A DNA stretch of 59,435 nt, taken from the NCBI GenBank assembly GCA_902802265.1, contig CADCLN010000025.1, forward strand, positions 1 through 59,435, read 5' to 3'. The notes beneath the pieces are model-generated. The model was not told the DNA's origin. It searched no databases and saw only the letters and a list, made by a program, of their open reading frames with translations. Made by a program: the position numbers and the translations under genes. Below, one piece after another: positions 11,731 through 45,276 of this stretch. This stretch comes from an uncultured Bacteroidales bacterium. GTDB lineage: Bacteria > Bacteroidota > Bacteroidia > Bacteroidales > Bacteroidaceae. How positions within the stretch are numbered: the first letter of the stretch is position 1; the number at the start of each line of letters is the position of its first letter.

Positions 11731-11739
11731 AGGAAAGAT

Positions 11740-15245: not shown

Positions 15246-15893
15246 ATGATGAAAGATATTGCAATATATGGCGCGGGCGGCTTTGGCCGAGAAGTCTTCT
15301 GCCTAATCAATAAAATCAATGCCGTAGAGGCGACATGGAATGTGATTGGCTTTTTTGATGACGGCAAGGAAAAAGGCGCACCCGTGGGACACTACGGCAC
15401 GGTGCTGGGAGGCATCAGCGAAGTGAATGCGTGGCCCAGTGAATTGGCGTTGGTGGTGGCTGTTGGCAGTACTGCCAATATGCTGAAAATCACTGCTGGA
15501 GTCACCAATCCTAAAATTTCATTCCCCAATATCATCCACCCCGAAGTGGTGTTCTCTGACCGCGACTCCATGCAGATGGGGCAGGGCAACATTGTGCAGC
15601 GTGGATCGGCCTTTTCGTGCGATGTCACAATAGGCGATTTCAACGTGTTCAATGGTGGCACGGTGCTGGGACACGATGTGCAGATGGGCTCGTGCAACGT
15701 CCTGATGCCCGCCGTGAGAATCTCTGGTGAGACACGTGTGGGCAACGGCAACTTCTTCGGCATTGCATCGATTGTGCTGCAAGGGCTGAAAGTGGGCAAC
15801 GGAGTCACCCTCGGCGCTGGCAGTGTGCTGCTCACAAAGCCGAAGGACGGCAAACTTTACATGGGCAACCCAGCAAAGAAGACGGAATTTTGA
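15246..15893 (+). CDS. PglD/NeuD/VioB-type sugar N-acyltransferase
   Basis: 215 residues. The N-terminal Rossmann-like domain binds the nucleotide sugar (IYGAGGFGREVFCLI, residues 7-21). The C-terminal half is a left-handed beta-helix with the LGHDVQMG motif; His143 corresponds to the catalytic base of PglD. The family puts an acyl group on the amino group of a UDP- or dTDP-4-amino-4,6-dideoxy sugar. It is the first gene of the locus, and the next genes encode a carrier protein, two ketosynthases and reductases. The donor may therefore be an acyl-ACP or acyl-CoA other than acetyl. Matching aminotransferase and dehydratase genes are at 25370 and 26815. Confidence 0.85.
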   Translation: MMKDIAIYGAGGFGREVFCLINKINAVEATWNVIGFFDDGKEKGAPVGHYGTVLGGISEVNAWPSELALVVAVGSTANMLKITAGVTNPKISFPNIIHPEVVFSDRDSMQMGQGNIVQRGSAFSCDVTIGDFNVFNGGTVLGHDVQMGSCNVLMPAVRISGETRVGNGNFFGIASIVLQGLKVGNGVTLGAGSVLLTKPKDGKLYMGNPAKKTEF

Positions 15894-15923
15894 TTATTAA
15901 CTTTATAAAAACAATTTTAGATT

Positions 15924-16154
15924 ATGAATCTCGAAGAATTTATCCAGAATTTTGCAGAACAGTTTGACGACACAGATGCCAGTGAATTCAAGGCCGGTAC
16001 AGTATTTCATGAACTGCCCGAATATAGCTCGCTGATAGCTCTCTCCATCATTGCCATGATTGACGAGGAGTATGACGTGACGCTGAAGGGTGATGACATG
16101 AAGAGTGCTGTGACCATTGAAGATTTGTTCAACATTGTCAAGAGCAAGCAATAA
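15924..16154 (+). CDS. Acyl carrier protein (first copy)
   Basis: 76 residues, acidic and helical, the size of an ACP. The phosphopantetheine site is EYSSL, with Ser36 in the place of the Ser in the usual DSL; the following helix (IALSIIAMIDEEYDVTL) matches the ACP recognition helix. It holds the growing acyl chain as a thioester. The stop overlaps the start of the ketosynthase gene (16154), typical of coupled translation. Its divergence from housekeeping ACP suggests a dedicated partner for the neighbouring enzymes. Confidence 0.85.
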   Translation: MNLEEFIQNFAEQFDDTDASEFKAGTVFHELPEYSSLIALSIIAMIDEEYDVTLKGDDMKSAVTIEDLFNIVKSKQ

Positions 16155-17185
16155 TGGCATATCTGAGTTTTAACAATGTGCGTGTAGCGGGATTTGCCAC
16201 CGGCGTTCCAAAGACTGTGCTGACCAACGAGTCGATGGACGAAGGGCAATACAGCGCATCGTCCTTCATCCAGTCCACAGGTGTGAAGAATCACCGCGTG
16301 TCGGAAGAATACACGGCTGGCGACCTTTGCTATGCCGCTGCCGAACAGCTGATTGCAGACCTGGGCTGGGACAAGAAGGAAATTGAGGCGCTGATATTTG
16401 TGTCTCAGCACGCAGACTATATCCTGCCAGCTACAGCCTGCATTTTGCAGGACCGACTGGGTCTCTCGAAGGAGTGTTATACGGCAGACCTTTCGCTGGG
16501 TTGTTCGGGTTGGGTCTATGGCATGAGTACGGTTGCCGGACTGCTTGCATCGGGCGGTGTGAAGAAAGCATTGCTGATGAGCGGAGATGGCAAGCGTCGC
16601 ATCAATTATGTGGACCCTCTCTTCGGACATGCAGGAGCCGTAACAGCCTTGGAGTATCAGGAAGGTGCACCTGCCATGCAGTTCTACTTCGGTACGGATG
16701 GTAGTGGTTTTGACGCCCTCATCATTCCTGATGGCGGCGCACGCAACCAGTTCTCCGACCAGTCTTTTGTTCCGGAGGATGTGGATGGACACATGCTGAC
16801 CCGTCTGCAGTCTCGCATGAAGGGCATGGACGTGTTTGCTTTCGGCATTTCATGGGGACCCAAGTCTGTGAAGCGTCTTGCAGAGCATTTCGGCTTTGAT
16901 TATCAGGACCAGGATTATTACATTTTCCATCAGGCAAACCTGCTGATGAATGAGAAAATCCGCACGAAACTGAAGTTACCAGCCGAGAAAGTTCCTTACT
17001 GCTTGCAGGATTTCGGAAACACCGCTTCTGCCTCCATTCCGTTGACCATCGTTTCTCAGCTGCGCGGACAGTTTGAAGAGCGCCGCACGAAGTTTATCGG
17101 TTGCGGTTTCGGTGTGGGACTTTCTTGGGGTGCTGTGCATTTTGAGACCGAAAACATTGTAGTTTCAAAATTGGTAGAAATCTGA
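16154..17185 (+). CDS. 3-oxoacyl-ACP synthase III (FabH-like, first copy)
   Basis: 343 residues, normal for the family. The catalytic triad is visible: Cys117 in LGCSGW, His259 in FHQAN and Asn289 in FGNTAS. Enzymes of this type condense an acyl-CoA or acyl-ACP with malonyl-ACP to a 3-oxoacyl-ACP. It starts inside the stop codon of the carrier-protein gene and is followed 3 nt later by a ketoreductase-like gene. This makes a module for a short 3-hydroxyacyl chain. It is not the housekeeping FabH by context: it sits in a polysaccharide locus and has a paralogue at 23552. Confidence 0.87.
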   Translation: MAYLSFNNVRVAGFATGVPKTVLTNESMDEGQYSASSFIQSTGVKNHRVSEEYTAGDLCYAAAEQLIADLGWDKKEIEALIFVSQHADYILPATACILQDRLGLSKECYTADLSLGCSGWVYGMSTVAGLLASGGVKKALLMSGDGKRRINYVDPLFGHAGAVTALEYQEGAPAMQFYFGTDGSGFDALIIPDGGARNQFSDQSFVPEDVDGHMLTRLQSRMKGMDVFAFGISWGPKSVKRLAEHFGFDYQDQDYYIFHQANLLMNEKIRTKLKLPAEKVPYCLQDFGNTASASIPLTIVSQLRGQFEERRTKFIGCGFGVGLSWGAVHFETENIVVSKLVEI

Positions 17186-17188
17186 CGT

Positions 17189-17944
17189 ATGGCATACAAT
17201 CCGTATTCTCTTGAAGGCAAGACCATTCTGGTGACAGGTGCAGGTTCGGGCATCGGACGTGCCACGGCTGTGGAGTGTTCTCGGATGGGTGCACGCCTTG
17301 TCCTGGTTGACATCAACGAGGCTGCGCTGAATGACACGCTCGCCATGCTGGAGGGACAGGACAGGGAACACCTCTGCTGTGTGGTCAACCTGTGTGACGA
17401 ATCTGCCATTGAGGCGATGGCGAAGCAACTGCCACAGATAGATGGATGTTCGCACAATGCCGGCATTACCAATCTGGTGCCGATACAATTTATCACGGCA
17501 GAGGAGGTGGAACGCATTCATCGCGTCAACCTGTTGGCTCCCATTTTGCTTACTAAATACTTGGTCAAGAAAAAGAAACTGAACCGTCCGTCGTCCATTG
17601 TGTTCACGGCTTCGGCTGGTGGCGTGTTCTGTGCCTCTGTAGGCAACGCCATCTATGCAACGTCGAAATGTGGTATAGATGCCTATATGCGGACAGCGGC
17701 ACTGGAACTTGCTCCAAAGGGAATCCGCTGCAACAGCGTGAACCCAGGCATGGTGGAAACACCCCTGATCAATCGTGGACAAGTTTCACCAGAACAGCAT
17801 GAGAAGGACAAAGCAAACTATCCGCTGGGACGTTACGGACGGCCAGAAGATGTAGCCCATGCCACTATCTTCCTGCTTTCTGACGCTTCTTCCTGGATGA
17901 CGGGTACGGCGCTGAAAATTGACGGCGGATTGACATTGAGATAA
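17189..17944 (+). CDS. Short-chain reductase, FabG-like (first of three)
   Basis: 251 residues of the classical SDR fold. Cofactor motif TGAGSGIG (16-23), NAG (90-92), and catalytic Ser142, Tyr156 and Lys160 (YATSK). Likely reduces a 3-oxoacyl-ACP to the 3-hydroxyacyl form with NAD(P)H. It lies 3 nt after the ketosynthase gene and 1 nt before a close paralogue, so the two reductases arose by tandem duplication. The unusual SHNAG context and KKKKL segment before the Ser strand are shared with the paralogue. Reduction of a sugar intermediate is the alternative role. Confidence 0.85.
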   Translation: MAYNPYSLEGKTILVTGAGSGIGRATAVECSRMGARLVLVDINEAALNDTLAMLEGQDREHLCCVVNLCDESAIEAMAKQLPQIDGCSHNAGITNLVPIQFITAEEVERIHRVNLLAPILLTKYLVKKKKLNRPSSIVFTASAGGVFCASVGNAIYATSKCGIDAYMRTAALELAPKGIRCNSVNPGMVETPLINRGQVSPEQHEKDKANYPLGRYGRPEDVAHATIFLLSDASSWMTGTALKIDGGLTLR

Positions 17945-17945
17945 T

Positions 17946-18701
17946 ATGATGAACGAAAATCCTTTTACCCTGGAAGGTAAAACCATCCTGATAACAGGCG
18001 GTGCCGGTGGCATTGGCAGCGAGGTGGCAAAAGTGTGTGCCCAGTCGGGCGCACGTGTTGTACTTACTGATATACGTGAAGATGTGTTGCAGGAAGTCCT
18101 TGCATCCCTGCCCGCAGTGGGCTGTGGCGAACATCTTGCGGTGAAGGCAGACCTGACGAGGGCCGAAGAATTGCAAGCGTTGGTGGATGCCTGTCCTGCC
18201 CTGGATGGCTTTGTGTGCAATGCCGGTGTGATGAAGCTCACACTTACACAGTTCATCACCGAAGAAGAACTCACCCGCATTCAGCGTATTAACCTGAATG
18301 CGCCTATTTTGCTTACACGCACATTGCTGAAGAAAAAGAAAATCAGCAAGGGCGGTTCCATCGTCTTCACAGCTTCGGCCGCCGGTGTCTATCGTGTATC
18401 GCTTGGCAATGCCATCTATGCTACGACGAAATGCGGCATTGATGCTTTCATGCGCACGGTGGCTCTGGAGTTTGGCCCCAAGGGTATTCGTTGCAACAGC
18501 GTGAATCCAGGCATGGTGGAGACAGCCCTGATAGGTGGATTTACAGAAGAAGAGAAGGCGCGGGAAATGCAGAATTATCCTTTGCGTCGTTTTGCAAAGC
18601 CTCTTGACATCGCATTAGGCATTGTTTATCTGTTGTCAGACGCTTCGTCTTTCGTCACGGGCACAGCCTTGAAGATTGACGGCGGAATGACACTCAGCTA
18701 A
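17946..18701 (+). CDS. Short-chain reductase, FabG-like (second, tandem paralogue)
   Basis: 251 residues, the same architecture as the preceding gene: TGGAGGIG cofactor loop (17-24), CNAG (91-94), Ser144, Tyr158 and Lys162. The two share the LLKKKK stretch and the GNAIYATxKCGIDA catalytic helix, which points to recent duplication. Two reductases behind one ketosynthase may mean two substrates, for example the 3-oxo group and another carbonyl, or a heteromer. Same operon, 1-nt gap. Confidence 0.83.
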   Translation: MMNENPFTLEGKTILITGGAGGIGSEVAKVCAQSGARVVLTDIREDVLQEVLASLPAVGCGEHLAVKADLTRAEELQALVDACPALDGFVCNAGVMKLTLTQFITEEELTRIQRINLNAPILLTRTLLKKKKISKGGSIVFTASAAGVYRVSLGNAIYATTKCGIDAFMRTVALEFGPKGIRCNSVNPGMVETALIGGFTEEEKAREMQNYPLRRFAKPLDIALGIVYLLSDASSFVTGTALKIDGGMTLS

Positions 18702-18716
18702 TAGTTAATTTTTTTT

Positions 18717-19880
18717 ATGAATAGAAAAGCAAGAGTAATCGCCCTATACCTTCCGCAGTTTCACCCCATCCCAGAGAATGACATGTGGTGGGGAAAGGGT
18801 TTTACGGAATGGACCAATGTGGGTAAGGCAAAACCCCTGTTCAAAGGACATTATCAACCAAGAGTTCCTGCCGATTTAGGTTATTATGACCTCCGTATGC
18901 CAGAAGTGCGCGAAGCCCAAGCCGAAATGGCACGTGAAGCAGGCATCGAAGGTTTCTGCTACTGGCACTACTGGTTCGGTGGTGGCAAGCAATTGCTGGA
19001 ACGTCCCTTCAATGAGGTTTTGGCCAGCGGTAAGCCCGATTTCCCGTTTGCTTTGGCTTGGGGAAATCATTCATGGCGCACAAACACCTGGACGAGTGGT
19101 GGCAAGAAGCAAGACGCCATGATGGTGGAGCAGAAGTATCTTGGTGAGGATGATTACAGAAAGCACTTTGAATACGTGCTTCCTGCTTTCAAGGATAAAC
19201 GTTACATCACGGTAGATGGAAAGCCGCTTTTCTTAATCTTCGACCCTGTGGCTGTTCCGCGCGACTTTGTTCCTTTATGGCGTAAATGGGCCATTGAAGC
19301 AGGATTGCCAGGCATTCATTTCGTGGGCAATATACAAAATTGCAATAATCGCCCATTGAAAGATGCCAATGGAAATGATTACACTAAGGGCTATTTCACC
19401 ACAAACGAGGCTGGCAAGTATTACGATTATGTCACCAAGGAACTGGGTTACGATGCTGCAGCAAGCATGGGCACATGGCGTGCGGAAATCTGCACGAAGA
19501 ATCGCTATTGGTTTGCTCTGCAGCGTCAGCTGGTTTATCGTCTGAACATGAAGGTTTCCAATATCTACGATTACCGTAAGGTGATGCGCCATTACTATGT
19601 TCCGGAAGATGCTCGTGAGAATGTTTATCCCAGTTTGTTACCTCAGTGGGACCGCAGTCCCCGTTCTGGCATAAATGGAATTTATCACAATTCGCGTCCA
19701 GAGTATTTTAAGGAAACAATAAAAGAGGCTCTTGAACTCATCAAGAATAAGCAGGATGAACACAAGATTCTTTTCCTGAAATCCTGGAACGAGTGGGCTG
19801 AAGGTAATTATGTGGAACCCGACTTGCGCTTCGGACATGGATATCTGGATGCAATTCGTGACTGTATAAAGGTTGAATAA
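18717..19880 (+). CDS. WbsX-like glycan enzyme (GH99-like domain)
   Basis: 387 residues. The start (VIALYLPQFHPIPENDMWWG, then GFTEWTNV) and GFCYWHYWFGGG are diagnostic of the WbsX family, which is found in O-antigen and capsule loci and is related in fold to GH99 endo-mannosidases. It is often annotated as a glycosyltransferase, but the activity is not established. No signal peptide, so cytoplasmic. It lies 15 nt after the reductase and 14 nt before a GT4 transferase. Probable role in assembling the repeat unit. Confidence 0.85.
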   Translation: MNRKARVIALYLPQFHPIPENDMWWGKGFTEWTNVGKAKPLFKGHYQPRVPADLGYYDLRMPEVREAQAEMAREAGIEGFCYWHYWFGGGKQLLERPFNEVLASGKPDFPFALAWGNHSWRTNTWTSGGKKQDAMMVEQKYLGEDDYRKHFEYVLPAFKDKRYITVDGKPLFLIFDPVAVPRDFVPLWRKWAIEAGLPGIHFVGNIQNCNNRPLKDANGNDYTKGYFTTNEAGKYYDYVTKELGYDAAASMGTWRAEICTKNRYWFALQRQLVYRLNMKVSNIYDYRKVMRHYYVPEDARENVYPSLLPQWDRSPRSGINGIYHNSRPEYFKETIKEALELIKNKQDEHKILFLKSWNEWAEGNYVEPDLRFGHGYLDAIRDCIKVE

Positions 19881-19894
19881 TAGATTATTGTAGT

Positions 19895-21043
19895 ATGCGA
19901 ATTTTTATTATATCGCGTGGATATCCGTCAAAGAGAGAACCGCAAAGGGGATGTTTTGAAAAAGATCAGGCTGAGGCACTGGTGCGGATGGGGCATGAAG
20001 TCGCCATGTTGAGTGTGGACAGACGATTTCGCTTTTTTTGGCGGCATATAGGAATAACAAAAAAACAAGGAAACGGTGTTACATCATACGATTCTTTCAT
20101 TGTTCCAGGAAAATTGATTGATTTATTTGGAAAACGTTTTTCTCAATACACAAGGAATAAACAATTGGATTTGGTCTATCAAGCAGCCGTGAAAGATTAC
20201 GGTAAGCCAGACCTTCTTTATAGCCATTATTTATACAATAGTTATTATGCCTTGTATTTAAAGAAAAAATATAGTATTCCGCTTGTTGGCATAGAACATT
20301 GGTCGGAACTTGTGAAAGAAAATCTTTCGCCTCGCATAGATTTCTGGGGCCATAGAACTTATTCAAACCTTGACTTGCTGATAACTGTATCGCCTTTTCT
20401 TCAGAAAAAAATTAAAGAGAAGTTTGGGGTGGATTCTACCGTAGTGTATAATATGGTAGGAAAGGAATTTCTTTATAATCCTTCCAAGCAAACTTCTAAA
20501 CAGAAACGTTATATTTTTGTGGGAAGTCTGTTGCCGATTAAACGTGTGGATTTAATCATTGAAGCTTTTGCTAAATCTGGAATTCCACAAGAAGATTGGT
20601 TGCTTTATATTGTAGGAGATGGAGAGCAGCGGAAATTTTTGGAAGATTTATCTGAACGTTTAGGCTTAAAACAGAATATTCTTTTTCTGGGAAAAAAGAA
20701 GAAGGAGGAAATAGCAGAGTTGTATCAGAAATCGGATGTAATGTTGTTGGCTTCTGATATTGAAACTTTTAGTGTGGTTTGTATTGAGGGGCTTGCTTGT
20801 GGCTTGCCTGTGATAGCAACGAAATGTGGCGGTCCAGAAAGTTTTATAAATAAAGAAAATGGATTGCTGTGCCAGACCAATGATGTGGTTGCGTTTGCAA
20901 GGGCATTGAAGCAAATGCAGGAAACATCAAAACAATATGATCGTCAGAAAATAGCAGATGATTGTCAAGCGCAATTTTCCTCTCAAGTCATAGCTCAGCA
21001 ATTGACAGAATTATTTGAACAAGTTTTGACGAAAGAGAAATAG
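19895..21043 (+). CDS. Glycosyltransferase family 4
   Basis: 382 residues with a GT-B fold. The C-terminal half shows IFVGSLLPIKRVDLIIEAF (about 208-226) and the donor-binding ETFSVVCIEGLACGLPVIATKCGGP motif (in part, about 291-313) with its two glutamates. Transfers a sugar from a nucleotide donor to the lipid-linked repeat unit on the cytoplasmic side. The gene is more AT-rich than the flanking acyl genes, hinting at a different origin within the locus. Confidence 0.88.
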   Translation: MRIFIISRGYPSKREPQRGCFEKDQAEALVRMGHEVAMLSVDRRFRFFWRHIGITKKQGNGVTSYDSFIVPGKLIDLFGKRFSQYTRNKQLDLVYQAAVKDYGKPDLLYSHYLYNSYYALYLKKKYSIPLVGIEHWSELVKENLSPRIDFWGHRTYSNLDLLITVSPFLQKKIKEKFGVDSTVVYNMVGKEFLYNPSKQTSKQKRYIFVGSLLPIKRVDLIIEAFAKSGIPQEDWLLYIVGDGEQRKFLEDLSERLGLKQNILFLGKKKKEEIAELYQKSDVMLLASDIETFSVVCIEGLACGLPVIATKCGGPESFINKENGLLCQTNDVVAFARALKQMQETSKQYDRQKIADDCQAQFSSQVIAQQLTELFEQVLTKEK

Positions 21044-21074
21044 AACGATTGATAAAAAGGAAAATTAAAACAGA

Positions 21075-21833
21075 ATGGAACGACTTTTACAAAATAAAAT
21101 TTGCATCATCACGGGTGCAGCGCAGGGCATCGGGCGGGCGATTGCTGAGCAGTTTGCCATTGACGGTGCGGTGGTGTATGCCACGGACATGAAGGAGGGC
21201 ACGATGGATGTGTGGGCCGAGCAGCTTTCTGCAAAAGCCCAGACGCGCGTGGTGCCTTTGTATTTTGACGTGACAGACGCTGCGGCGGTGAAAGCGGCCT
21301 TTATGCAGGTGCATAAGACTGAAGGCAAGATTGACGCGCTGGTCAATAATGCTGGCGTGGTGTTTAATCGAAAGATGGGCATGATTGTGCGTCCGGAGAC
21401 GGAGCTGATGTTCCGTGTCAACGTGATTGCCGTCATTGAGATGATTCAGCTTGCAAGCCGACTGATGGCACGCACTGGGGGTGGCTCCATCGTAAACATA
21501 GCTTCGGTCACAGCGGTATTGGGTTCGCCTGGGCAGGTTGCTTATTCTGCCACGAAGGGAGCTATCATTGCCATGACAAAATCGGCTGCTAAGGAACTGG
21601 CTCCACAGGGCATCCGTGTGAACGCTGTGGCTCCAGGCATCGTGAAGACCGAGCGTTTTGCTGAACTCTACGAGGCCAGCGGCGACAAGATAGACCAGCG
21701 CATCCAGAAGATAGCCCTTGGCAGACTGGGCACGCCGCAGGATGTGGCCAATGCCTGTGCTTTTATGGCAAGCGACCGCTCCAGCTACATCTCCGGTCAG
21801 ATTTTGGGCGTAGATGGTTGTGCTTCGATTTAG
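21075..21833 (+). CDS. fabG: Short-chain reductase, FabG-like (third)
   Basis: 252 residues. TGAAQGIG (13-20), NNAG (91-94), Ser144, Tyr157 and Lys161 are in place, and the ending YISGQILGVDGCASI is that of FabG ketoreductases. It is closer to housekeeping FabG than the pair at 17189-18701. It opens the second acyl module (reductase, AMP ligase, ACP, ketosynthase). Likely reduces the 3-oxoacyl-ACP made by the ketosynthase at 23552. Confidence 0.87.
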   Translation: MERLLQNKICIITGAAQGIGRAIAEQFAIDGAVVYATDMKEGTMDVWAEQLSAKAQTRVVPLYFDVTDAAAVKAAFMQVHKTEGKIDALVNNAGVVFNRKMGMIVRPETELMFRVNVIAVIEMIQLASRLMARTGGGSIVNIASVTAVLGSPGQVAYSATKGAIIAMTKSAAKELAPQGIRVNAVAPGIVKTERFAELYEASGDKIDQRIQKIALGRLGTPQDVANACAFMASDRSSYISGQILGVDGCASI

Positions 21834-21849
21834 TTTGAAAGACAAAGCA

Positions 21850-23259
21850 ATGTTGATAGATTTAGACAAAATACCCGCTGAGCGCATTGCCGCGCTCGAT
21901 TCAAGTGGCAACAAAGTGTCCTATGGCGACATCTGCACACTTTCTGCTGCTGTCAAACAGTCTGTTGGCGAGCGTAGCCTGTGCTTCATGCTGGTGGAAA
22001 ACACCGCTGGCGCTTTGGCATGGGTCATGGCTTCATTAGCCAGTGAAACACTGGTGCCACTCATCCTCAATGTGAAAACCGAGGCAGGATTGCTTCAGTC
22101 GTTGATGGATACTTACAAACCTGCTTATCTTTGTGTTCCTGAAACTTTTGCACTGGAACAGACTTGTGACAGCAACGAAGTGAAAGCTGAGTTCGGCTAC
22201 AGACTTATCCGCACGGCGAATCCGCTTTGTGCGCTTTACCCAGAACTTTCCCACCTGTTGCCTACCAGTGGCAGCACAGGCAGTCCGAAGTTGGTGCGCC
22301 ATAAGTATGCGAACATCGAAGCCGCAGCTCTCAATATCTCCACTTTCTTTGAACTAAAAGCCAGCGACCGCCCTTTGTTGGTGTTACCACTCTACTATAC
22401 GATGGGACTTTCTGTGGTGTTCAGTCACCTGAAAGTGGGTGCAACCGTGCTGATTACAGGTCTCAACATGACTGACCGCCTCTTTTGGTCGTTCATCAAG
22501 ACAGAACGTGCAACCAGCTTCACCGGTGTACCCTACAGCTTCCACATCCTCAACCTGATGCGATTTATGCGCATGGATTTGCCCGACATGGAACTGCTCA
22601 CGCAGGGTGGAGGCAAGATGCCTACCGACTTGAACCTCAAGTTCGCAGAATTCTGTCAGCAGCACGGCAAGCGTTGGATTGCTACTTACGGCCAGTCGGA
22701 GTGTACTGCTCGCATGGCATGGCTTCCCCCAAAATGGGCCATCGAAAAGGTGGGCAGCATCGGCATAGCCGTTCCCAACGCAGAACTCTCTCTGCAAGAC
22801 AGCGACGGCAACGAAATCCTGACTCCCCACACAGAGGGTGAAATGTGCTACCGAGGCAAGAACGTGACGATGGGCTATGCACGCCAGCAGAGCGACCTTG
22901 CCCTGGGCGACGAGCGCGGAGGCTTTATCCGCACGGGCGACCTTGCATACCGCGACGAAGACGGCTGCTACTACATCGTTGGCCGCATGGGGCGTTTCCT
23001 CAAACTCTTCGGAATGCGGGTCGGTCTGGACGAATGTGAACAGATTGTGCAGACCGAGACAGGAGCCGAGTGCGCCTGTGTGGGCACCGACGAAAAGATG
23101 ATTGTCTATATCACCGAAGCCCAAAAGCAGGAGCAGGTGAAGCAGGTGCTGGTGGAGAAAACCCACATCGTTGCTACAAGTTTCGAGGTGCGCATCATCC
23201 CTGAGATTCCAAAGAACGAGACGGGCAAAAAGCTTTTCAAACAGTTGCCCAATAAATAA
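21850..23259 (+). CDS. AMP-binding acyl-activating enzyme (acyl-CoA/acyl-ACP synthetase)
   Basis: 469 residues from the ATG at 21850, 16 nt after the previous stop. An earlier ATG at 21814 lies inside the reductase gene. The ANL-family motifs are present: TSGSTGSPKLV (ATP loop), TYGQSECTARMAW, GDLAYRDEDGCYYIVGR and a near-terminal KNETGKK with the adenylation Lys. It activates a free acid as acyl-AMP and loads it on CoA or the carrier protein encoded 37 nt downstream. It is shorter than fatty-acid CoA ligases. It offers a route for a preformed acid to enter the pathway. Confidence 0.87.
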   Translation: MLIDLDKIPAERIAALDSSGNKVSYGDICTLSAAVKQSVGERSLCFMLVENTAGALAWVMASLASETLVPLILNVKTEAGLLQSLMDTYKPAYLCVPETFALEQTCDSNEVKAEFGYRLIRTANPLCALYPELSHLLPTSGSTGSPKLVRHKYANIEAAALNISTFFELKASDRPLLVLPLYYTMGLSVVFSHLKVGATVLITGLNMTDRLFWSFIKTERATSFTGVPYSFHILNLMRFMRMDLPDMELLTQGGGKMPTDLNLKFAEFCQQHGKRWIATYGQSECTARMAWLPPKWAIEKVGSIGIAVPNAELSLQDSDGNEILTPHTEGEMCYRGKNVTMGYARQQSDLALGDERGGFIRTGDLAYRDEDGCYYIVGRMGRFLKLFGMRVGLDECEQIVQTETGAECACVGTDEKMIVYITEAQKQEQVKQVLVEKTHIVATSFEVRIIPEIPKNETGKKLFKQLPNK

Positions 23260-23296
23260 AGATGAAAGATTTACACATTATATATAATATATACAT

Positions 23297-23536
23297 ATGA
23301 ACAATTTAGAGAAATACAACGAGATTTTTGCAAACGTGTTTGGAGCGCAGCCCGATCAGCTTGGTGCTAACTACTGCAAGGAAAACGTGTCCGAATGGGA
23401 CTCTGTGCACCAGCTGAATATCATCTCTGAGATGGAAGATGCCTTCGACCTCATGCTCGACCCCGAGGACATCGTGGCTTGCACGTCTTACGAAGCAGGC
23501 AAGGATATTCTGCGCAGAAACGGTGTCGAAATCTAA
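23297..23536 (+). CDS. Acyl carrier protein (second copy)
   Basis: 79 residues with the site EWDSVHQL; Ser36 carries the phosphopantetheine. The following acidic helix (ISEMEDAFDLML) fits the family. It differs clearly from the first copy (EYSSL), so each probably serves its own module. It lies between the AMP ligase and the second ketosynthase (15-nt gap). Confidence 0.87.
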   Translation: MNNLEKYNEIFANVFGAQPDQLGANYCKENVSEWDSVHQLNIISEMEDAFDLMLDPEDIVACTSYEAGKDILRRNGVEI

Positions 23537-23551
23537 ATAGTAAATAAAACT

Positions 23552-24613
23552 ATGGCTCGTTGGGAAATAAAGAATGTACGCTTTGCCGGCGTTTCAGCCT
23601 GTGTGCCTAAGCAGATTGTCAAGACTGCTGACTACGACATTTTCACACAGGAAGAAGCCGATACATTCGATAAGACTGTGGGCATCTGTGAACGTCGCAT
23701 TGCCCCCGATGACATCTGTGCGTCTGACCTGTGTCAGGCTGCTGCCGAGCGACTCCTTGAAGAGTTAGGGTGGGAGAAGGACACCGTCGATGCACTTATC
23801 TTTGAATCTGTTACAGGCGACTATCGCACACCGCCCACTGCTTGCCTCTTGCAAGACCGCATGGGACTGAGTGCCGACTGCTTCTGCCTCGACATTCCGA
23901 TGGGATGCTGCGGTTGCATGTACGCGCTCGTTGTGGGTGGCAATTTGCTCACCACTGGTAATGTGCATCGTGCCCTCCTGTTGGTAGGCGACACAGCGCT
24001 TCGCATGGGTAGCATGAAGGATAAAAGCCGCGTGCCCCTCTTTGGTGATGCTGGCACAGCGATTGCTTTAGAGTTTGACACCGAGGCTGAACCCATCGTC
24101 ATCGACTTCCACACCGACGGTGCAGGCTATACGGCTCTGCACACGCCTCACGGTGGATTCCGTCATCCGTTCACTGCGGAGTCGCTTGTCTATGAAGACT
24201 TTGGCCACGGCATTGTGCGTGCTCCCATGCACACTATGATTGACGGCATGTCGGTCTTTGCCTTTGCCATCAGCAAGCCGCCACGTTCTGTCAGCCAGTT
24301 TATGACTGACTATCAGCTCGACAAAGACACGGATATCGATTACTTCCTCATTCATCAGGCCAACAAACTCATTGTGGACCGCGTGGTGAAGAAGCTCAAG
24401 TTGCCGCTGGAGAAAGTGCCTTACAATCTGGAAGAGTTCGGAAATCTGGGTGGTGCAAGCATCCCTTCGCTCATGGTCACACGCATTCGCGAGCGGCTGC
24501 AGGGTGGGGAACCAACCCGCTTGCTCTGTTCTTCCTTCGGTCTGGGACTCAGTTGGGGCACCATGCTGCTGAACTTGAAGAACGTTACCATTCCGGAATT
24601 GGTGGAAATTTAA
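23552..24613 (+). CDS. 3-oxoacyl-ACP synthase III (FabH-like, second copy)
   Basis: 353 residues, with Cys119 in PMGCCGC, His268 in IHQAN and Asn298 in FGNLGG forming the triad. It is a paralogue of the protein at 16154, and both end in a near-identical tail (VELVEI-like: ...PELVEI and ...SKLVEI). It condenses an acyl starter with malonyl-ACP. The unusual Cys-Cys at 119-120 next to the active site is not in the first copy. Duplication of carrier protein plus ketosynthase suggests two rounds of extension or two different acyl products. Confidence 0.85.
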   Translation: MARWEIKNVRFAGVSACVPKQIVKTADYDIFTQEEADTFDKTVGICERRIAPDDICASDLCQAAAERLLEELGWEKDTVDALIFESVTGDYRTPPTACLLQDRMGLSADCFCLDIPMGCCGCMYALVVGGNLLTTGNVHRALLLVGDTALRMGSMKDKSRVPLFGDAGTAIALEFDTEAEPIVIDFHTDGAGYTALHTPHGGFRHPFTAESLVYEDFGHGIVRAPMHTMIDGMSVFAFAISKPPRSVSQFMTDYQLDKDTDIDYFLIHQANKLIVDRVVKKLKLPLEKVPYNLEEFGNLGGASIPSLMVTRIRERLQGGEPTRLLCSSFGLGLSWGTMLLNLKNVTIPELVEI

Positions 24614-24642
24614 TCATGTACCATCAGAGAATGAAGAATACA

Positions 24643-24713
24643 GGTTCTCCCCCTGAGGGGGAGTGAGAGGGGGTCTAAATGGTAAATAGTAAATGGTAAA
24701 TAGTAAATAAAAA
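24643..24713. repeat. GC hairpin and TAAATRG tandem repeat
   Basis: CTCCCCC/GGGGGAG forms a 7-bp hairpin, followed by five degenerate heptamers (TAAATGG/TAAATAG, about 24676-24710) directly before the ATG at 24715. The heptamer is the same family as TGGTAAA at 28881 and 31509. No TAnnTTTG is seen here, so the repeat would lie in the mRNA between two genes. Confidence 0.55.
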
Positions 24714-24714
24714 G

Positions 24715-25323
24715 ATGTACAAAAACTATCTGAAACGAGCCATAGACTTCACGTTGGCTCTCGTTGCCCTTCTTTGCATTGGCTGGTTCATTCTGCTGGT
24801 TGCATTCTGTCTGCACTTTGCCAACCGTGGCGATGGGGCATTCTTCACACAGATAAGGCCAGGAAAGGACGCCAAACCCTTCCGTCTGGTCAAGTTCAAA
24901 ACCATGAACGACAAGCGAGGCCCCGATGGTGAACTGCTCGAAGACAAAGACCGCCTCACGCCTGTAGGTCGCGTTGTGCGCTCGCTTTCCATCGACGAAC
25001 TGCCGCAGCTGTGGAATGTGCTCCGTGGCGATATGGCTCTGATTGGACCACGCCCCCTGTTGATGGACTATCTCTCCCTTTACACCCCAGAACAGATGCG
25101 CCGCCACGAAGTCCGTCCAGGCATCACGGGCTGGGCACAAGTCAATGGCCGTAACGCCATCAGCCACACCCGCAAGTTTGAGTTGGACGTCTGGTATGTT
25201 GACCACCTCACCTTCTGGCTCGACCTGAAGATACTTTTCCTTACTGTGAAGAAAGTCCTTGTGCGCGAAGGAATCAGTGCCGAAGGTCAGGCAACCATCG
25301 GTAAGTTTGATGGAACGAATTAG
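24715..25323 (+). CDS. PglC-type initiating sugar-phosphate transferase
   Basis: 202 residues, the size of the minimal monotopic enzymes such as PglC. One membrane-associated hydrophobic segment (about 12-32) is followed by the polyprenol-phosphate glycosyl-1-phosphate transferase core: FRLVKFKTM, SIDELPQLWNVLRGDMALIGPRP (in part) and RPGITGWAQVNGRN. It moves a sugar-1-phosphate from the UDP sugar to undecaprenyl phosphate and starts the repeat unit. With a PglD-, PglE- and PglF-type set in the same locus, the expected substrate is a UDP-N-acylated 4-amino-4,6-dideoxy sugar. Confidence 0.9.
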   Translation: MYKNYLKRAIDFTLALVALLCIGWFILLVAFCLHFANRGDGAFFTQIRPGKDAKPFRLVKFKTMNDKRGPDGELLEDKDRLTPVGRVVRSLSIDELPQLWNVLRGDMALIGPRPLLMDYLSLYTPEQMRRHEVRPGITGWAQVNGRNAISHTRKFELDVWYVDHLTFWLDLKILFLTVKKVLVREGISAEGQATIGKFDGTN

Positions 25324-25369
25324 TGAACATACATAAAAATAGCATAACCTCAAAACCGTATAACTATAT

Positions 25370-26614
25370 ATGAGAAATAGAATTTATCTGTGCCTTGCCC
25401 ACATGTCGGGCAATGAGCAAAAATACATCCAAGAGGCTTTCGACACCAACTGGGTAGTGCCTCTTGGTCCCAACGTGAATGCGTTTGAAGAAGACCTGAA
25501 ACAGTTTGTTGACCCTACGAAAGAAGTGGTTGCCCTGTCTGCCGGTACAGCTGCAGTCCATCTGTCGCTGATTGCCTGTGGAGTGAAACGTGGTGACGAA
25601 GTGCTCTGCCAGGACTTTACGTTCTGTGCATCAAGCAATCCCATTACCTATCAAGGTGCAACGCCCGTGTTTGTTGACAGCGAAGCCGACAGCTGGAACA
25701 TGGATCCTGAACTGCTCGAAAAAGCCATCATCGACCGTCAGCAAAAAACGGGTCGTCTGCCGAAAGCCATCATGATGGTCTATCTCTATGGAATGCCTGG
25801 TCGCATTGACGAAATCATGGCGATAGCAGAAAAATATCAGATTCCGCTTATTGAAGATGCTGCTGAAGGACTTGGCTCCCGTTTCGACGGCAAGGTAGTG
25901 GGCAGCTTTGGTCAGTACGGCATACTCTCGTTCAATGGCAACAAGATGATTACCACCTCTGGAGGCGGTGCATTGGTTTGTCCCGATGCAGCTTCGAAGC
26001 AGGAAGTCATGTTTTATGCCACTCAGGCACGCGAGGCTTATCCATACTATCAACATGAGAAGATAGGCTACAACTACCGCATGTCGAACATCTGTGCAGG
26101 CATCGGACGTGGTCAGATGACTGTGCTCAACCAGCACATTCAGCATCATCATCACATCGCAGCCCTCTACAAGGAGGCATTCGCTGCAGTGCCAGGCATC
26201 ACTTTCCACGATAATCCTTCTCCACGTTACGACTCCAACTTCTGGCTCAACACCATCCTGCTCGACGAAGACTTGAAGGTGAAAGGTCAGGAGCAGGCAT
26301 ACGCCACAGCTGTGCAAGGTGCCGTGGGCGGTGCTGCAGGTGTTACTCATGCAGCCTCGTCGCTCCACACCGCTGTGGAACCAAATGCCAACGTGGAAGC
26401 CATGCGTATTTGTCTTGACAAGGCAATGATTGAATCCCGTCCTTTGTGGAAGCCCATGCATTGCCAGCCAGTCTATCGGGACAATCCTGCCTATGTCAAC
26501 GGAGTCTCGGAGTCCCTCTTCCGCCGCGGTCTCTGCCTGCCTTCTGGTCCCATGGTCACAGACGACGACGTGCAGTATATCATCGAAAATATATTGGCAT
26601 CCATTGAACGATAG
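25370..26614 (+). CDS. PglE-type sugar aminotransferase (DegT/DnrJ/EryC1)
   Basis: 414 residues. PLP-dependent aminotransferase of the sugar family: ALSAGTAAVHLSL (57-69), IEDAAEGLGSRFDG (161-174) and the PLP-binding Lys192 in FNGNKMITTSGGG. It aminates the 4-keto sugar made by the dehydratase encoded at 26815, giving the 4-amino sugar that the acyltransferase at 15246 would modify. Last gene of the plus-strand run; a bidirectional terminator follows at 26713. Confidence 0.92.
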   Translation: MRNRIYLCLAHMSGNEQKYIQEAFDTNWVVPLGPNVNAFEEDLKQFVDPTKEVVALSAGTAAVHLSLIACGVKRGDEVLCQDFTFCASSNPITYQGATPVFVDSEADSWNMDPELLEKAIIDRQQKTGRLPKAIMMVYLYGMPGRIDEIMAIAEKYQIPLIEDAAEGLGSRFDGKVVGSFGQYGILSFNGNKMITTSGGGALVCPDAASKQEVMFYATQAREAYPYYQHEKIGYNYRMSNICAGIGRGQMTVLNQHIQHHHHIAALYKEAFAAVPGITFHDNPSPRYDSNFWLNTILLDEDLKVKGQEQAYATAVQGAVGGAAGVTHAASSLHTAVEPNANVEAMRICLDKAMIESRPLWKPMHCQPVYRDNPAYVNGVSESLFRRGLCLPSGPMVTDDDVQYIIENILASIER

Positions 26615-26712
26615 TTTATCGTCGATTTAACAGCAGTTAAGTTTTGAATCGACAAGCGCTGTGTTTTGAATTTTCAACAGCTCAGTTTTAGCTTGAAAAT
26701 AGATGATAAATG

Positions 26713-26755
26713 TAAAATGCTAACTTAGAACCGATGGCTCTGAGTTAGCATTTTA
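26713..26755. terminator. Bidirectional terminator between convergent genes
   Basis: TAAAATGCTAACT (26713-26725) pairs with AGTTAGCATTTTA (26743-26755), extended by TAGA/TCTG pairing. T-rich ends lie on both strands, separating the aminotransferase and dehydratase genes. Confidence 0.8.
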
Positions 26756-26814
26756 TATGAATTTTAAGGAGAATCCGAAAGTCCCCGCGTTTTTACATTT
26801 TTGCGTTCTTACGG

Positions 26815-28767
26815 TTACTCCTTGTCCAACCGCTCGTATGGCGAGTTCTTGCTCTTAAACTCTGGAACGATGTCCTTCATCTTCTGGACGGTGACGAAGG
26901 GTTTGTTGCCTTGTGCCAATGCGATGAGTTCGAGGATGTCTTTCTTTACCTGTTTGTATTCGTATTCGCGCACCTTGGCAACCATGATTTTCTCGTTCTG
27001 CGTGGGTAGGGTAGTCTCTTTCTGGTTGAGCAACTCTTCGAAGAGTTTTTCTCCTGGACGCAGTCCTGTAAATTCTATCTCAATGTCTTTGCCAGGTACC
27101 AATCCAGCCAGGCGAATCATGTTCTTTGCCAAGTCGAGAATCTTGACGGGCTTGCCCATGTCGAAAACAAAGATTTCGCCGCCGTTGCCCAGTGTGCTGG
27201 CTTCCATGACAAGTGTACATGCTTCGGGAATGGTCATGAAGTAGCGGATAATCTCTGGGTGGGTGACGGTGACAGGACCGCCAGCGGCAATCTGCTTCTT
27301 GAAGTAAGGGATGACGGAGCCATTGCTGCCCAGCACATTGCCAAAGCGCGTGGTGATGAATTTGGTCTTTGTCTGTTGCTTGGCAAGACTTTGCACATAG
27401 ATTTCTGCCAGTCGCTTGCTGCAGCCCATCACGTTGGTGGGGTTGACGGCTTTGTCTGTAGATACCATGACGAAGCGTTCCGCTCCGTACTTTACAGCCA
27501 TGTTTGCCATGTTCATCGAACCGAGCACATTGGCGCAAATGGCTTCGTTGGGGTGGTCTTCCATCAGGGGCACGTGCTTGTAAGCTGCGGCGTGGTAGAT
27601 GACAGTGGGGTTGTATTCTTTCATGACCTCTTCGATGCGTTCTTCGTTGCGTACATCGCCAATGCGTGGTACAAGCTTCTGGTTGGGGAACTGGGCTTTG
27701 AGGTCGAGTGTGAGGTCGTGCAGAGGTGATTCTGCCATTTCGTAGAGGATGACAGCTTCGGGACCGTAGGGGATGATTTGTCGAACCAGTTCTGAACCGA
27801 TACTGCCCGCAGCTCCCGTCACCATGACGATTTTGCCCTGAATAGTTTGTCGCACGTTCTCCGTATCGATATTGATGACAGGGCGATCCAGAAGGTCTTC
27901 AATCTTGATGCTGTTGATTTTTGTCATGATGAAGGCCTGTGTGTCGATGTCGTCCACATCGCTCCATTCTTCGAAATCGCCTACGGTGTAGATATTGATA
28001 TTCTGTTCAAGCAGATTGTTCAGTTCTTTGTCGGCATTCAGTTCTTTCACTTTTGATTCGGGAATGATGATGCCATCGACCATGTCGCGCTTCATGCGTT
28101 TTGCCAGTTTCTCGTCGAGCTTTGTGACGTGCAGTCCTGCCATGTCGTGCGCTTTAAAATCCTCTCCGTTGTCAATGAAGCCCACGACCTTGTATTTGGT
28201 GTAGATGTCGCTGCGGAGCATTTTTGCCAGCGCAACACCTTTGGCATCGGCTCCGTAGATATATACACGCTTGCGGTTGACCATTTTGTGGGAAAGCATT
28301 TCGAAGACCGTCTTTGCGCCCACACGCAGACTGAACAGCAGGAGGAAGCAGAGTCCCATGTAGAAGACCACGGTGCTGTTCATCAGCAGTTTGTAGTCCC
28401 ATACATTTTCGCAGGTGAAGTTGAGAGCCAGCATGAGAATGGCGCCAGTCACCACAGCACCGAGCACTTTCAGCGTGTCGATGAAGGTGGAGAAGCGCAG
28501 CACGCCTGCGTAGGTGCGGAACAAGAGGAAGCAGCACAGCTGTACAAACAACACGATGGGCAACTGTTCGTGCAGCTGCAGATTCATCAGCGAACTTTTG
28601 TATGAGAATATGCCATTGGCAGCCCAGAAACTCATCACGAATGCCGCACTCGCAAGACACAAATCCACAGCCAGCACTCCCCAGCGAGGCAGATAGCTGC
28701 TTGACAGGGCTAATGAAGCAAATTTATAGACAGGTTTGTCGCTGTTTTTGTTCAAAAATTTATCCAT
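26815..28767 (-). CDS. PglF/WbpM-type membrane UDP-GlcNAc 4,6-dehydratase
   Basis: 650 residues. Four N-terminal membrane helices (about 25-125) lead to a first nucleotide-binding domain (RVYIYGADAKGVALAKML) and then the catalytic SDR domain (MVTGAAGSIGSELVRQI; AAAYKHVPLME; STDKAVNPTNVMGCSKR). This is the full-length WbpM/PglF architecture. It makes the UDP-4-keto-6-deoxy sugar, the first step before the aminotransferase and acyltransferase encoded at 25370 and 15246. Convergent with the aminotransferase; no clear promoter was seen in the 177 nt upstream. Confidence 0.93.
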   Translation of the reverse strand: MDKFLNKNSDKPVYKFASLALSSSYLPRWGVLAVDLCLASAAFVMSFWAANGIFSYKSSLMNLQLHEQLPIVLFVQLCCFLLFRTYAGVLRFSTFIDTLKVLGAVVTGAILMLALNFTCENVWDYKLLMNSTVVFYMGLCFLLLFSLRVGAKTVFEMLSHKMVNRKRVYIYGADAKGVALAKMLRSDIYTKYKVVGFIDNGEDFKAHDMAGLHVTKLDEKLAKRMKRDMVDGIIIPESKVKELNADKELNNLLEQNINIYTVGDFEEWSDVDDIDTQAFIMTKINSIKIEDLLDRPVINIDTENVRQTIQGKIVMVTGAAGSIGSELVRQIIPYGPEAVILYEMAESPLHDLTLDLKAQFPNQKLVPRIGDVRNEERIEEVMKEYNPTVIYHAAAYKHVPLMEDHPNEAICANVLGSMNMANMAVKYGAERFVMVSTDKAVNPTNVMGCSKRLAEIYVQSLAKQQTKTKFITTRFGNVLGSNGSVIPYFKKQIAAGGPVTVTHPEIIRYFMTIPEACTLVMEASTLGNGGEIFVFDMGKPVKILDLAKNMIRLAGLVPGKDIEIEFTGLRPGEKLFEELLNQKETTLPTQNEKIMVAKVREYEYKQVKKDILELIALAQGNKPFVTVQKMKDIVPEFKSKNSPYERLDKE

Positions 28768-28944: not shown

Positions 28945-29976
28945 ATGTACGAATTTGATATAAAAACACTGCTGAGAAATTTGTGGAATGCTCGCCGCCG
29001 CATCGTGACAAACTGTGTCATCGCACTGTTTGTCGGGTTGGTGATTGCGTTTAGCATTCCGAAGCAATATGTTGCCCAATGCACCTTGGCATCGGAAGTG
29101 CAGAGTGAGGATATAGGTGGCAATCTTGGTGCGTTGGCTTCCATTGCGGGTATCAATGTGGCGAACAGCAGTGATGCCATAGGTCCCGACCTCTATCCCA
29201 GTGTCGTTTCTTCGCGCAGCTTTCTGGTTGATTTGCTCTATGTGGAGGTTACGACTGAGGAGGGTGAACGCCTGACCTACTACGACTATCTGAAGACGAA
29301 GACACGTTTGCCGTGGTGGGGATTCATCACAAAGGCCATCGGCAAGACACTGAAATCCATCTTGCCTGACGAAAAGAAGAAGTCTTCAGAGGAAGGTGAA
29401 CGCATTGACCCTGAGCACATGACTCGTGAAGAAGAATCGTTGGTGGAGGGAATGAAAAGCCTTATCAGTTGCAAAATCAATCAGAAAGACTTTACCATCA
29501 ATCTGGCGGTATATGCCCAAGACCCCAATGTGTCGAAGACAATGGTCGATACGGTGATGGTGCATTTGCAGAACTTCATTACGGCTTATCGCACGAACAA
29601 GGCTCGCAATGACCTGCAATTCTATCAGAAAATGGAAAAAGAAACCAACCAGAAATATATTGAATCGCAGAAAGTGTATGCTGACTATTGCGACTCGCAT
29701 CAGGGCATCATTCTTCAGGCTTATCAGACGGAACTGGAACGACTGGAGAACGAACTGCAGGTGGCTCTTTCTGCCTATACGCAAATGAAACAGCATGTGC
29801 AGATGGCTGAAGCTAAGGTGCAGGAGAAGACTCCAGCCTTCACGCTGATTGAGAAGTCCACCGTGCCCAACAAGGCTTCTTCGCCGAAAAAGTTATTGAT
29901 ATTGATAGCTTTCCTGTTCCTGAGTTTCACGGGAACGTGTGGTTGGTTATATGTGAAGCTTTTGTTTCAGCGGTAA
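28945..29976 (+). CDS. Wzz-type chain-length / polysaccharide co-polymerase
   Basis: 343 residues. One membrane helix near the N-terminus (VTNCVIALFVGLVIAFSI), a large periplasmic region with coiled-coil stretches (about 205-290), and a second helix at the C-terminus (LLILIAFLFLSFTGTCGWL). This is the Wzz topology; it sets the chain length made by the polymerase. An IAGINVANSS segment follows the first strand region, as in Bacteroidetes members. No C-terminal kinase domain. The last 30 nt overlap the end of the convergent flippase gene. Confidence 0.88.
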   Translation: MYEFDIKTLLRNLWNARRRIVTNCVIALFVGLVIAFSIPKQYVAQCTLASEVQSEDIGGNLGALASIAGINVANSSDAIGPDLYPSVVSSRSFLVDLLYVEVTTEEGERLTYYDYLKTKTRLPWWGFITKAIGKTLKSILPDEKKKSSEEGERIDPEHMTREEESLVEGMKSLISCKINQKDFTINLAVYAQDPNVSKTMVDTVMVHLQNFITAYRTNKARNDLQFYQKMEKETNQKYIESQKVYADYCDSHQGIILQAYQTELERLENELQVALSAYTQMKQHVQMAEAKVQEKTPAFTLIEKSTVPNKASSPKKLLILIAFLFLSFTGTCGWLYVKLLFQR

Positions 29977-44829: not shown

Positions 44830-45276
44830 TCAGAACTTTCGGTAAGTCACGCGTGCTGAGTCCGACTGAAGTATCATCTCCTGTTTGGTCAGCCGTTCAA
44901 TGCGAAACACCTCGTTCAGTGTGTAGTAGCCCCAGCGGTGCAGCGTTTCGGCACTTCCGAGCGGACGGTTGTCTGTGGTTTCAAGGTCGTTCTCGGCCAT
45001 GTCAGAAAACTGGCGGAACACGATGGTACTTTCACCCTTGTCAAAATAGCCATAATAACGCTGGCGGTCGCCTGTGACACTGAGCTGGAACAAATCCAGC
45101 TGGATGGAGAGAAAGAGCTGCTGTCCTTTCACGTCTGTCGTTTCGCCCTTATGTTCGATGGTCAGCAGCTGCCAGTTGCCGTCCAAGTCGCCATTCTTTG
45201 GCCATTTGTTTTCGCAAGAAAAACAGAGGGCGCAGAGCAGGCATAGGGTATAGAGGTATCTGTTGAAATGCTTCAT
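44830..45276 (-). CDS. Lipocalin-like lipoprotein
   Basis: 148 residues with a lipoprotein signal (CALCFSCENKW). The mature part starts GDLDGNWQLLTIEHKG and goes on as a chain of strands with a YYGYFDKGESTIVFRQF segment, similar to small lipocalin-like/DUF4488-type proteins of Bacteroidales. Function unknown. Its ATG overlaps the stop of wzi by 4 nt, and the TagO-type gene starts 16 nt downstream. This tight order suggests a role in building or anchoring the same surface polymer. Confidence 0.75.
   Translation of the reverse strand: MKHFNRYLYTLCLLCALCFSCENKWPKNGDLDGNWQLLTIEHKGETTDVKGQQLFLSIQLDLFQLSVTGDRQRYYGYFDKGESTIVFRQFSDMAENDLETTDNRPLGSAETLHRWGYYTLNEVFRIERLTKQEMILQSDSARVTYRKF

Follow-up and report, generated by a model that had tools for sequence, protein, structure and literature searches.

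A probable hydroxyacyl-building cassette with two carrier proteins in a Bacteroidales capsule-type locus, and its recurrence as separable modules

Introduction

Why does the sugar-starting part of a surface-glycan locus encode two acyl carrier proteins (ACPs), two FabH-like ketosynthases (KSs), three short-chain dehydrogenase/reductases (SDRs) and an AMP-forming acid ligase (LIG)? The locus in question occupies positions 15,246 to 28,767 of a 59,435-nucleotide stretch from an uncultured Bacteroidales bacterium (assembly GCA_902802265.1, contig CADCLN010000025.1), hereafter the window, which is one entire contig (G000:C25) of a genome bin of 2.88 Mb that is 85.65% complete. As judged from its sequence, the cluster probably builds a hydroxylated acid and attaches this acid to the first sugar of the glycan, and many related bacteria carry the same parts, arranged as modules that can occur apart. 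Specifically, two halves of different lineage behave as modules: A, consisting of ACP1, SDR1 and an optional KS1, and B, consisting of SDR3-LIG-ACP2. Module B also occurs without a ketosynthase, and KS2 goes with both modules.

Results

Two acyl lineages in one amino-sugar locus

From 15246 to 28767 the genes run PglD, ACP1, KS1, SDR1, SDR2, WbsX, GT4, SDR3, LIG, ACP2, KS2, PglC and PglE on the forward strand, followed by PglF on the reverse strand (Table 1). A sequence-only reading had listed two ACPs, two FabH-like KSs, three SDRs and one AMP ligase together with PglD, PglC, PglE and PglF, and this inventory is borne out by open frames, Pfam and profiles: every gene that it named is an open frame where it had been placed. 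Its description of the carrier system as "duplicated" does not hold. ACP1 and ACP2 are 22.7% identical and KS1 and KS2 42.4%, and in a tree of 114 KS proteins made with a quick method (the 112 aligned rows described below plus two more KS III proteins of the same genome), KS2 falls in a 56-row clade and KS1 in a separate 15-row clade (SH-aLRT 100 each). Given these low pairwise identities and separate clades, we rejected simple duplication. Only SDR1 and SDR2, which are 56.2% identical, look like tandem duplicates (SDR1 and SDR3, 32.1%).

The two ACPs score 18.2 and 15.0 bits against Pfam PP-binding, both under the 20.8 cut-off. Despite this, both are ACPs, confirmed by family profile and predicted fold for ACP1 and by family profile for ACP2. 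The top profile match of each is the solved ACP 2lml (E 1.9e-7 for ACP2; 6.2e-5 for ACP1), and the ACP1 model (pLDDT 92) is a four-helix ACP with a TM of about 0.8 to solved ACPs, in which helix II begins at Ser36. This serine is invariant in the conservation alignments, which took in part of the listed relatives (window plus 20 of 57 for ACP1; window plus 19 of 54 for ACP2). The residue preceding it is an invariant Asp in the ACP2 rows and mostly Ser or Thr in the ACP1 rows.

The catalytic residues attributed to the other enzymes are in place. Cys, His and Asn are retained in all 112 aligned KS rows of at least 300 residues (24 K1, 57 K2 and 31 other, window included), where K1 rows were assigned by score, some lying outside the 15-row KS1 clade, and K2 has one row outside the 56-row clade. 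The Ser-Tyr-Lys set of the three SDRs is present as Ser...YxxxK, judged by eye; FabI has a Tyr-6-Lys spacing. The predicted LIG model (pLDDT 87) is similar in fold to enzymes of the adenylate-forming type, MenE among them (TM about 0.6-0.76); these are generic relatives that do not reveal the acid. The ATP-site motif and C-terminal Lys of LIG are invariant in 24 aligned rows (window plus 23 of 45 listed). LIG is a complete adenylate-forming enzyme encoded beside a carrier gene, which is the arrangement of a stand-alone ACP-loading ligase, and an ACP2-type gene lies within 6 kb of LIG in 64/64 LIG loci with sufficient flank. The lack of a dehydratase was also upheld: PF07977, which matches in 9/14 controls, finds nothing anywhere in the genome bin, where at 85.65% completeness a housekeeping copy may be missing. 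Since no dehydratase was found, hydroxyl groups should stay on the product.

By gene family, the PglF, PglE, PglD and PglC types of the Pgl amino-sugar pathway all stand in this one locus. PglD scores 150.6 bits against the NeuD/PglB/VioB model (cut-off 160.8, not reached); its nearest solved structures are the pilin glycosylation protein 4m98, perosamine N-acetyltransferase and VioB, and His143 of its GHD motif is conserved in 56/56 aligned rows, window included. PglE scores 347.9 bits against the LegC model, below the cut-off of 420, and its closest solved aminotransferases are 1o61 and 4ztc (table label "Aminotransferase homolog"), the latter of which we take to be Campylobacter PglE. Because PglE is closest to these two structures, a UDP-QuiNAc4N-type sugar is the probable acceptor.

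The cassette recurs sporadically, mainly in Bacteroidales

A KS2 scan of named genomes yielded 58 loci (L numbers below; G numbers are genomes), 52 of which were judged, each with at least 6.5 kb upstream. The remaining six had no KS2 best match (L088, L090) or less than 6.5 kb upstream (L035, L063, L064 and L091; L063 holds the whole core). A six-gene core of ACP1, an SDR1-type gene, SDR3, LIG, ACP2 and KS2 is found in 51/52 loci, nearly all from Bacteroidales, and SDR3-LIG-ACP2-KS2 are consecutive among the recognised genes in those 51; the sole exception, L087, shares just 46% identity with KS2. The suggestion that such a module was new in Bacteroidales is thus not sustained by the neighbourhood search, though its distribution is sporadic. 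With the window's own genome included in each count, LIG relatives at E <= 1e-80 occur in 17/399 family genomes, with none other from the window's genus, and in 3/395 class genomes, and those at E <= 1e-100 in 8/393 order genomes. Wider, weaker KS2 relatives (E <= 1e-45) occur in 75/393 genomes drawn from the order, and a KS2 scan of viral contigs found no relative.

At least two KSs, two ACPs and two SDRs surround a LIG in 23 fetched records, or 20 without L131-L133, which repeat L044, L089 and L038. The nearest named relative locus, L034 (Bacteroidaceae bacterium, roe deer abomasum), has a KS2 93% identical to that of the window, almost the same gene order and WbsX in the same position, and the same set (two ACPs, two KSs, two SDRs, LIG and PglD) is found, differently arranged, in L129 and L130, from two genomes that lie outside the order. 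KS1 is present in 13/52 cassettes, and some carry inserted genes (WbsX and GT4 in the window; five genes between LIG and ACP2 in L055). A malonyl-transferase-like gene accompanies the module in L074, L075 and L110 (Pfam-confirmed in L075). The setting is glycan-related in 56/58 KS2-scan loci, where a PglC, PglE, PglF, Wzx, Wzy, LicD or ATP-grasp-type match reaches at least 60 bits (profile names partly by eye).

Two further gene families were seen beside these cassettes. A family of about 210 residues that we named "GNAT10" by eye (cluster 10, L080:19201-19857 and 11 others), with no Pfam match at 1e-4 for its representative, occurs in 11/20 cassettes that lack PglD beside ACP1 and in 2/32 that have it there (Fisher p 1.4e-4, a value that ignores relatedness); it is possibly an alternative acyltransferase. 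A GloB-like metallo-hydrolase (61.4 bits, below the model cut-off), possibly a thioesterase, is often near PglC/PglE (cluster 14, L050:15314-15931 and 10 others).

Modules A and B come apart

Pooling the KS2 loci with those of a LIG search gave 73 unique LIG loci at or above 450 bits (six duplicates dropped), 64 of them with sufficient flank; L118 and L119, fetched for weaker LIG matches of 232 and 223 bits, were rejected as below this limit. Across the 64, ACP1, an SDR1-type gene and a KS are all present in 59 loci, all absent in five and mixed in none. Fifteen of the 64 were fetched through LIG, and these split into 10 with all three genes (L113 among them is also a KS2 match) and five with none. 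Two of the latter, L112 and L135, hold PglD-SDR3-LIG-ACP2 alone; the others come with transketolase (L114), LuxE/LuxC and transketolase (L115) or LuxE/LuxC (L146). Nine short-flank rows were left out, of which L055, L061 and L068 have all three genes and L116 and L117 none. Because L112 and L135 branch separately within the A+B part of the LIG tree, the tree suggests that ACP1-SDR1 and KS2, which lie on opposite sides of SDR3-LIG-ACP2, were lost together twice. A whole-genome search of G111, the source of L112, returned a single KS, distant at 30% identity, and a single weak match to ACP1, and a family search around G111 found no further LIG locus (1/15, G111 itself).

Conversely, 12 of 24 loci around more distant KS matches have no LIG match, including L094 and L103, which carry PglD. 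By these matches, module A can stand without the LIG family, yet other ligases are often nearby. We had considered L110 as a lone module A and rejected it for its distant ligase (50 bits) and ACP-like frame; this unrecognised 90-residue frame (L110:9178-9447, - strand), read by eye, adjoins the distant AMP ligase of a locus that holds PglD-FabD-ACP1-SDR-KS.

Several observations weigh against such a modular picture or against the use we propose for it. Forty-nine of the 64 LIG loci were recruited by the KS2 scan, so that a KS is there by construction, and the loci are related, so the counts, whose labels come from profile scores, are not independent and a Fisher value computed from them cannot be read as a probability. 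Four short-flank rows look mixed, namely L035 (contig edge), L090 and both LIGs of L144. L090 does so only because ACP1 is just beyond reach, all three genes being in the locus, but the two L144 rows may be real exceptions: within reach of the first LIG there is a KS but no ACP1, and the second LIG has ACP1 and a KS but no SDR1-type gene. Loci with module B alone could instead stem from transfer of the SDR3-LIG-ACP2 block. L112 encodes an 816-residue hexapeptide-repeat/AMP ligase fusion beside PglC and PglE (L112:5175-7622, - strand), and G1010, the source of L135, matches KS weakly at four places, one of which lies with an ACP1-like gene and an SDR gene in another, unlinked glycan locus. In the other 12 of the 24 distant-KS loci, L110 included, a distant ligase matches at 30-140 bits, and pairing with ligases therefore appears wider than the LIG family. 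A PglD-type gene is directly upstream of ACP1 in 32/52 cassettes; by this count, PglD is not always the user of the acyl product. The acceptor of LIG could be CoA. Finally, Trp32 and Arg36, which we take to be CoA-binding positions of FabH, are present in the single ordinary-looking FabH compared and occur in 0/24 K1 and 0/57 K2 rows, a loss that fits, without showing, an ACP-bound starter; they are also missing from the 31 other KS rows, so that the loss does not single out KS2.

Related gene sets extend beyond these loci. In G1010, an ACP1-SDR-KS set lies directly between GNAT-like and NeuB/PseI-like genes of a pseudaminic-acid-type locus (L148, G1010:C65:48000-61886, 9917-11910, + strand; sugar names by eye), which suggests a hydroxyacylated nonulosonic acid. 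The window's own genome has a second glycan-type locus with ACP1-like, SDR1-like and KS genes (L147, G000:C2:58000-77000, 8813-10805, - strand), a module A set without a ligase match whose KS is 29% identical to KS2. Relatives of LIG-ACP2-SDR3 are found with a split transketolase (L088, L090, L095, L114, L115, L117, L141-L144) and with LuxE and LuxC (L115-L117, L146; Pfam-checked in L115), associations pointing to other acid- or aldehyde-making variants.

Known systems resemble each half

The Campylobacter Pgl pathway shares its four sugar steps, PglF, PglE, PglD and PglC, with the window. The donor of Campylobacter PglD is acetyl-CoA. That enzyme is described as an acetyltransferase in PMC6519341, whereas the window's transferase gene is linked to genes for ACPs.

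Closer likenesses exist for module A. In Pseudomonas syringae, a VioB-type transferase works with a FabH-like synthase, a reductase and an ACP to make an N-(3-hydroxyacyl) amino sugar, an N-(3-hydroxy-1-oxobutyl) amino sugar in the flagellin viosamine, and deletion of vioR removes the modified viosamine (PMC3927599). The viosamine island (vioA, vioB, vioS, vioR, acp, vioM, vioT) has a 4-aminotransferase, a VioB-type N-acyltransferase, a FabH-like synthase, a ketoreductase and an ACP in common with the window, whose locus accordingly holds the gene set of a VioS/VioR/VioB/ACP-type pathway: a Cys-His-Asn synthase, a ketoreductase, an ACP, a NeuD/VioB-type transferase and a 4-aminotransferase. 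Unlike the window, the island has one ACP, one KS and one reductase, uses a dTDP-sugar and serves flagellin, and its gene table lists no ligase and no second carrier. In the Flavobacterium psychrophilum O-antigen, wfpC-G are assigned to 3,5-dihydroxyhexanoyl-Qui2NAc4N, with the structure determined by nuclear magnetic resonance and the gene roles predicted (PMC6519341). By gene content rather than sequence, wfpC-G and the window share a PglD homologue, an ACP, two KSs and a reductase; the L103 gene set also resembles wfpC-G. The R-group system, however, has one ACP, two KSs, one ketoreductase and, in the same paper, no ligase, whereas the window has two ACPs, three SDRs and a ligase. For the chemistry of module A, P. 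syringae supplies a precedent by experiment and F. psychrophilum one by structure.

For module B the likeness is one of gene content, by description: accounts of flagellin glycosylation islands of Aeromonas and Enterobacteriaceae list an ACP, a 3-oxoacyl-ACP reductase and an AMP-synthetase with LuxE and LuxC, without function (PMC7874193, PMC4875605). These islands resemble the LuxE/LuxC-bearing LIG relatives of Bacteroidales (L115-L117, L146) and differ from the window in having LuxE/LuxC and, in those accounts, no named KS. In the open-licence literature, among the matches listed, we found no description of the combined A+B cassette.

A two-module route and its alternatives

We propose a route that, on the gene content above, seems to us to have about an even chance of being right, in which the starter comes from LIG and ACP2, KS2 elongates it onto ACP1, SDRs carry out the reduction and PglD acylates the 4-amino sugar. 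PglF and PglE would make a UDP-4-amino-4,6-dideoxy sugar, PglD would acylate its 4-amine and PglC would place the sugar on the lipid carrier, steps suggested by the gene families. SDR3 may make or adjust a small hydroxy- or keto-acid, which LIG would activate with ATP and load onto ACP2, a loading step that we infer because the LIG-ACP2 neighbourhood is conserved. ACP1 would carry the malonyl extender and later the product, and KS2 would be the bridge, taking the acyl group from ACP2 and condensing it with malonyl-ACP1. SDR1 and SDR2 would reduce beta-keto groups, KS1 would permit an extra round, and ACP1 and SDR1 would be needed only when the chain is extended. With no dehydratase each round would leave a hydroxyl, and for this reason PglD is predicted to transfer a short hydroxylated acid, the likely product class being 3-hydroxyacyl to 3,5-dihydroxyacyl or longer. 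More tentatively, and leaning slightly against it, we consider a general form: a ligase-primed two-carrier mini-polyketide line (starter ACP, bridging FabH-like enzyme, second ACP) in which Bacteroidales swap starter modules and extra extension enzymes, varying the surface glycan. Such a line would charge the first ACP from free acid and pass a completed polyhydroxy acid to an amino-sugar transferase, and its swappable starter modules would be the acid ligase alone, with transketolase or with LuxE/LuxC.

What separates this route from a Wfp-like one is the fate of the ligase and second carrier. If KS1 and KS2 ran two acetyl-CoA-primed rounds to give 3,5-dihydroxyhexanoyl on QuiNAc4N, the ligase would recycle freed acid and the second ACP would be spare. 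The window does hold two KSs and no dehydratase, and F. psychrophilum was assigned this acyl group with two KSs, one ACP, one ketoreductase and a PglD homologue (PMC6519341). However, 38/51 cassettes have no KS1, hence a single KS, and still keep both ACPs and the ligase, and LIG-ACP2 with PglD but no KS in the locus (L112, L135) argues that the ligase is not there for mere recycling; we regard this alternative as rather unlikely.

The joint coming and going of KS and second carrier would also be expected if KS2 were an acyl transferase rather than a condensing enzyme, with ACP1 or some other acceptor receiving the LIG-made acid from ACP2, and FabH-fold acyltransferases exist. Yet Cys-His-Asn is the decarboxylative set, and it is kept in 57/57 K2 rows; moreover, an SDR1-type reductase accompanies the KS in 59/59 loci, as expected if a beta-keto group is made, which renders this role for KS2 improbable. 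Least credible, in our view very much so, is that the acyl genes make an unrelated product (an aryl polyene, a flexirubin-type pigment or a lipid) and are in a glycan locus by chance. KS2 does match the StlD/DarB models, at 22-23 bits against far higher cut-offs of 450 and 550, but the KSs are FabH type and the KS2-scan loci hold glycan-type genes in the proportion given above. A FabZ-type dehydratase is a feature of aryl polyene and flexirubin-type clusters, and we rejected such a cluster here as the bin, itself incomplete, has no FabA/FabZ family gene by PF07977.

The N-acyl amino-sugar pathway proposed by the sequence-only reading thus gains from the precedents in PMC3927599 and PMC6519341 and from the neighbourhoods, and loses its simple duplication and its novelty in Bacteroidales; it had left the two ACPs and the ligase unexplained. 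The two-module route would replace the vague annotation of a capsule locus with fatty-acid genes by a modular scheme that can be tested, one that assigns starter and extender to particular carriers. Should it be true, the acyl group that surface sugars bear in many gut and rumen Bacteroidales could be predicted from gene content. The KS-free loci L112 and L135 serve as natural controls, since there the sugar should bear the ligase-made acid itself. In F. psychrophilum, strains that differ in R-group genes also differ in antigenicity (PMC6519341).

Neighbouring genes and further features of the window

Downstream of 28767 the window continues with Wzz-like, Wzx-like and more glycosyltransferase genes, with Wzi at 45273. 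These genes therefore mark a capsule-type locus, and the region studied here is the sugar-starting part of this capsule-type glycan locus.

Table 1. Genes of the acyl and amino-sugar region and context genes, in window coordinates
Feature	Position	Strand	Support
PglD/NeuD-type hexapeptide N-acyltransferase	15246..15893	+	PglD_N 41.2 bits, Hexapep
ACP1 (module A carrier), Ser36 in EYSSL	15924..16154	+	Family profile, fold model, alignment
KS1, FabH-like ketosynthase (module A, optional)	16154..17185	+	ACP_syn_III
SDR1, ketoreductase type (module A)	17189..17944	+	adh_short
SDR2, tandem relative of SDR1	17946..18701	+	adh_short
WbsX-type glycosyltransferase, between both acyl modules	18717..19880	+	PF14307 425 bits
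GT4 glycosyltransferase, between both modules	19895..21043	+	Pfam
SDR3, module B oxidoreductase, own lineage (31-32% to SDR1/2)	21075..21833	+	adh_short
LIG, AMP-forming acid ligase (module B)	21814..23259	+	PF00501 131.6 bits; start overlaps SDR3 end
ACP2 (module B carrier), WDS invariant	23297..23536	+	Family profile, alignment
KS2, FabH-like ketosynthase of the A+B cassette	23552..24613	+	ACP_syn_III
PglC-type phosphosugar transferase (initiator)	24715..25323	+	Bac_transf 199.8 bits
PglE-type 4-aminotransferase	25370..26614	+	DegT 297 bits
PglF-type membrane 4,6-dehydratase	26815..28767	-	Polysacc_synt_2 395.7 bits
Wzz-like chain-length protein (context)	28945..29976	+	GNVR 31.4 bits; Wzz 24.1 bits, under cut-off
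MATE-fold protein, Wzx-like flippase (context; the name Wzx is ours)	29947..31479	-	MatE 27 bits
Wzi capsule assembly protein (context)	45273..46826	-	PF14052 62.9 bits

Elsewhere, the window encodes four BspA-type leucine-rich repeat proteins (38436-40739, 40924-42306, 46943-49219 and 57475-59211) and, on the - strand, a rhamnogalacturonan lyase family 11 protein (4929-6836). The same genome contains a 2444-residue, NRPS-like open frame with two PP-binding domains (G000:C11:48361-51606, - strand).

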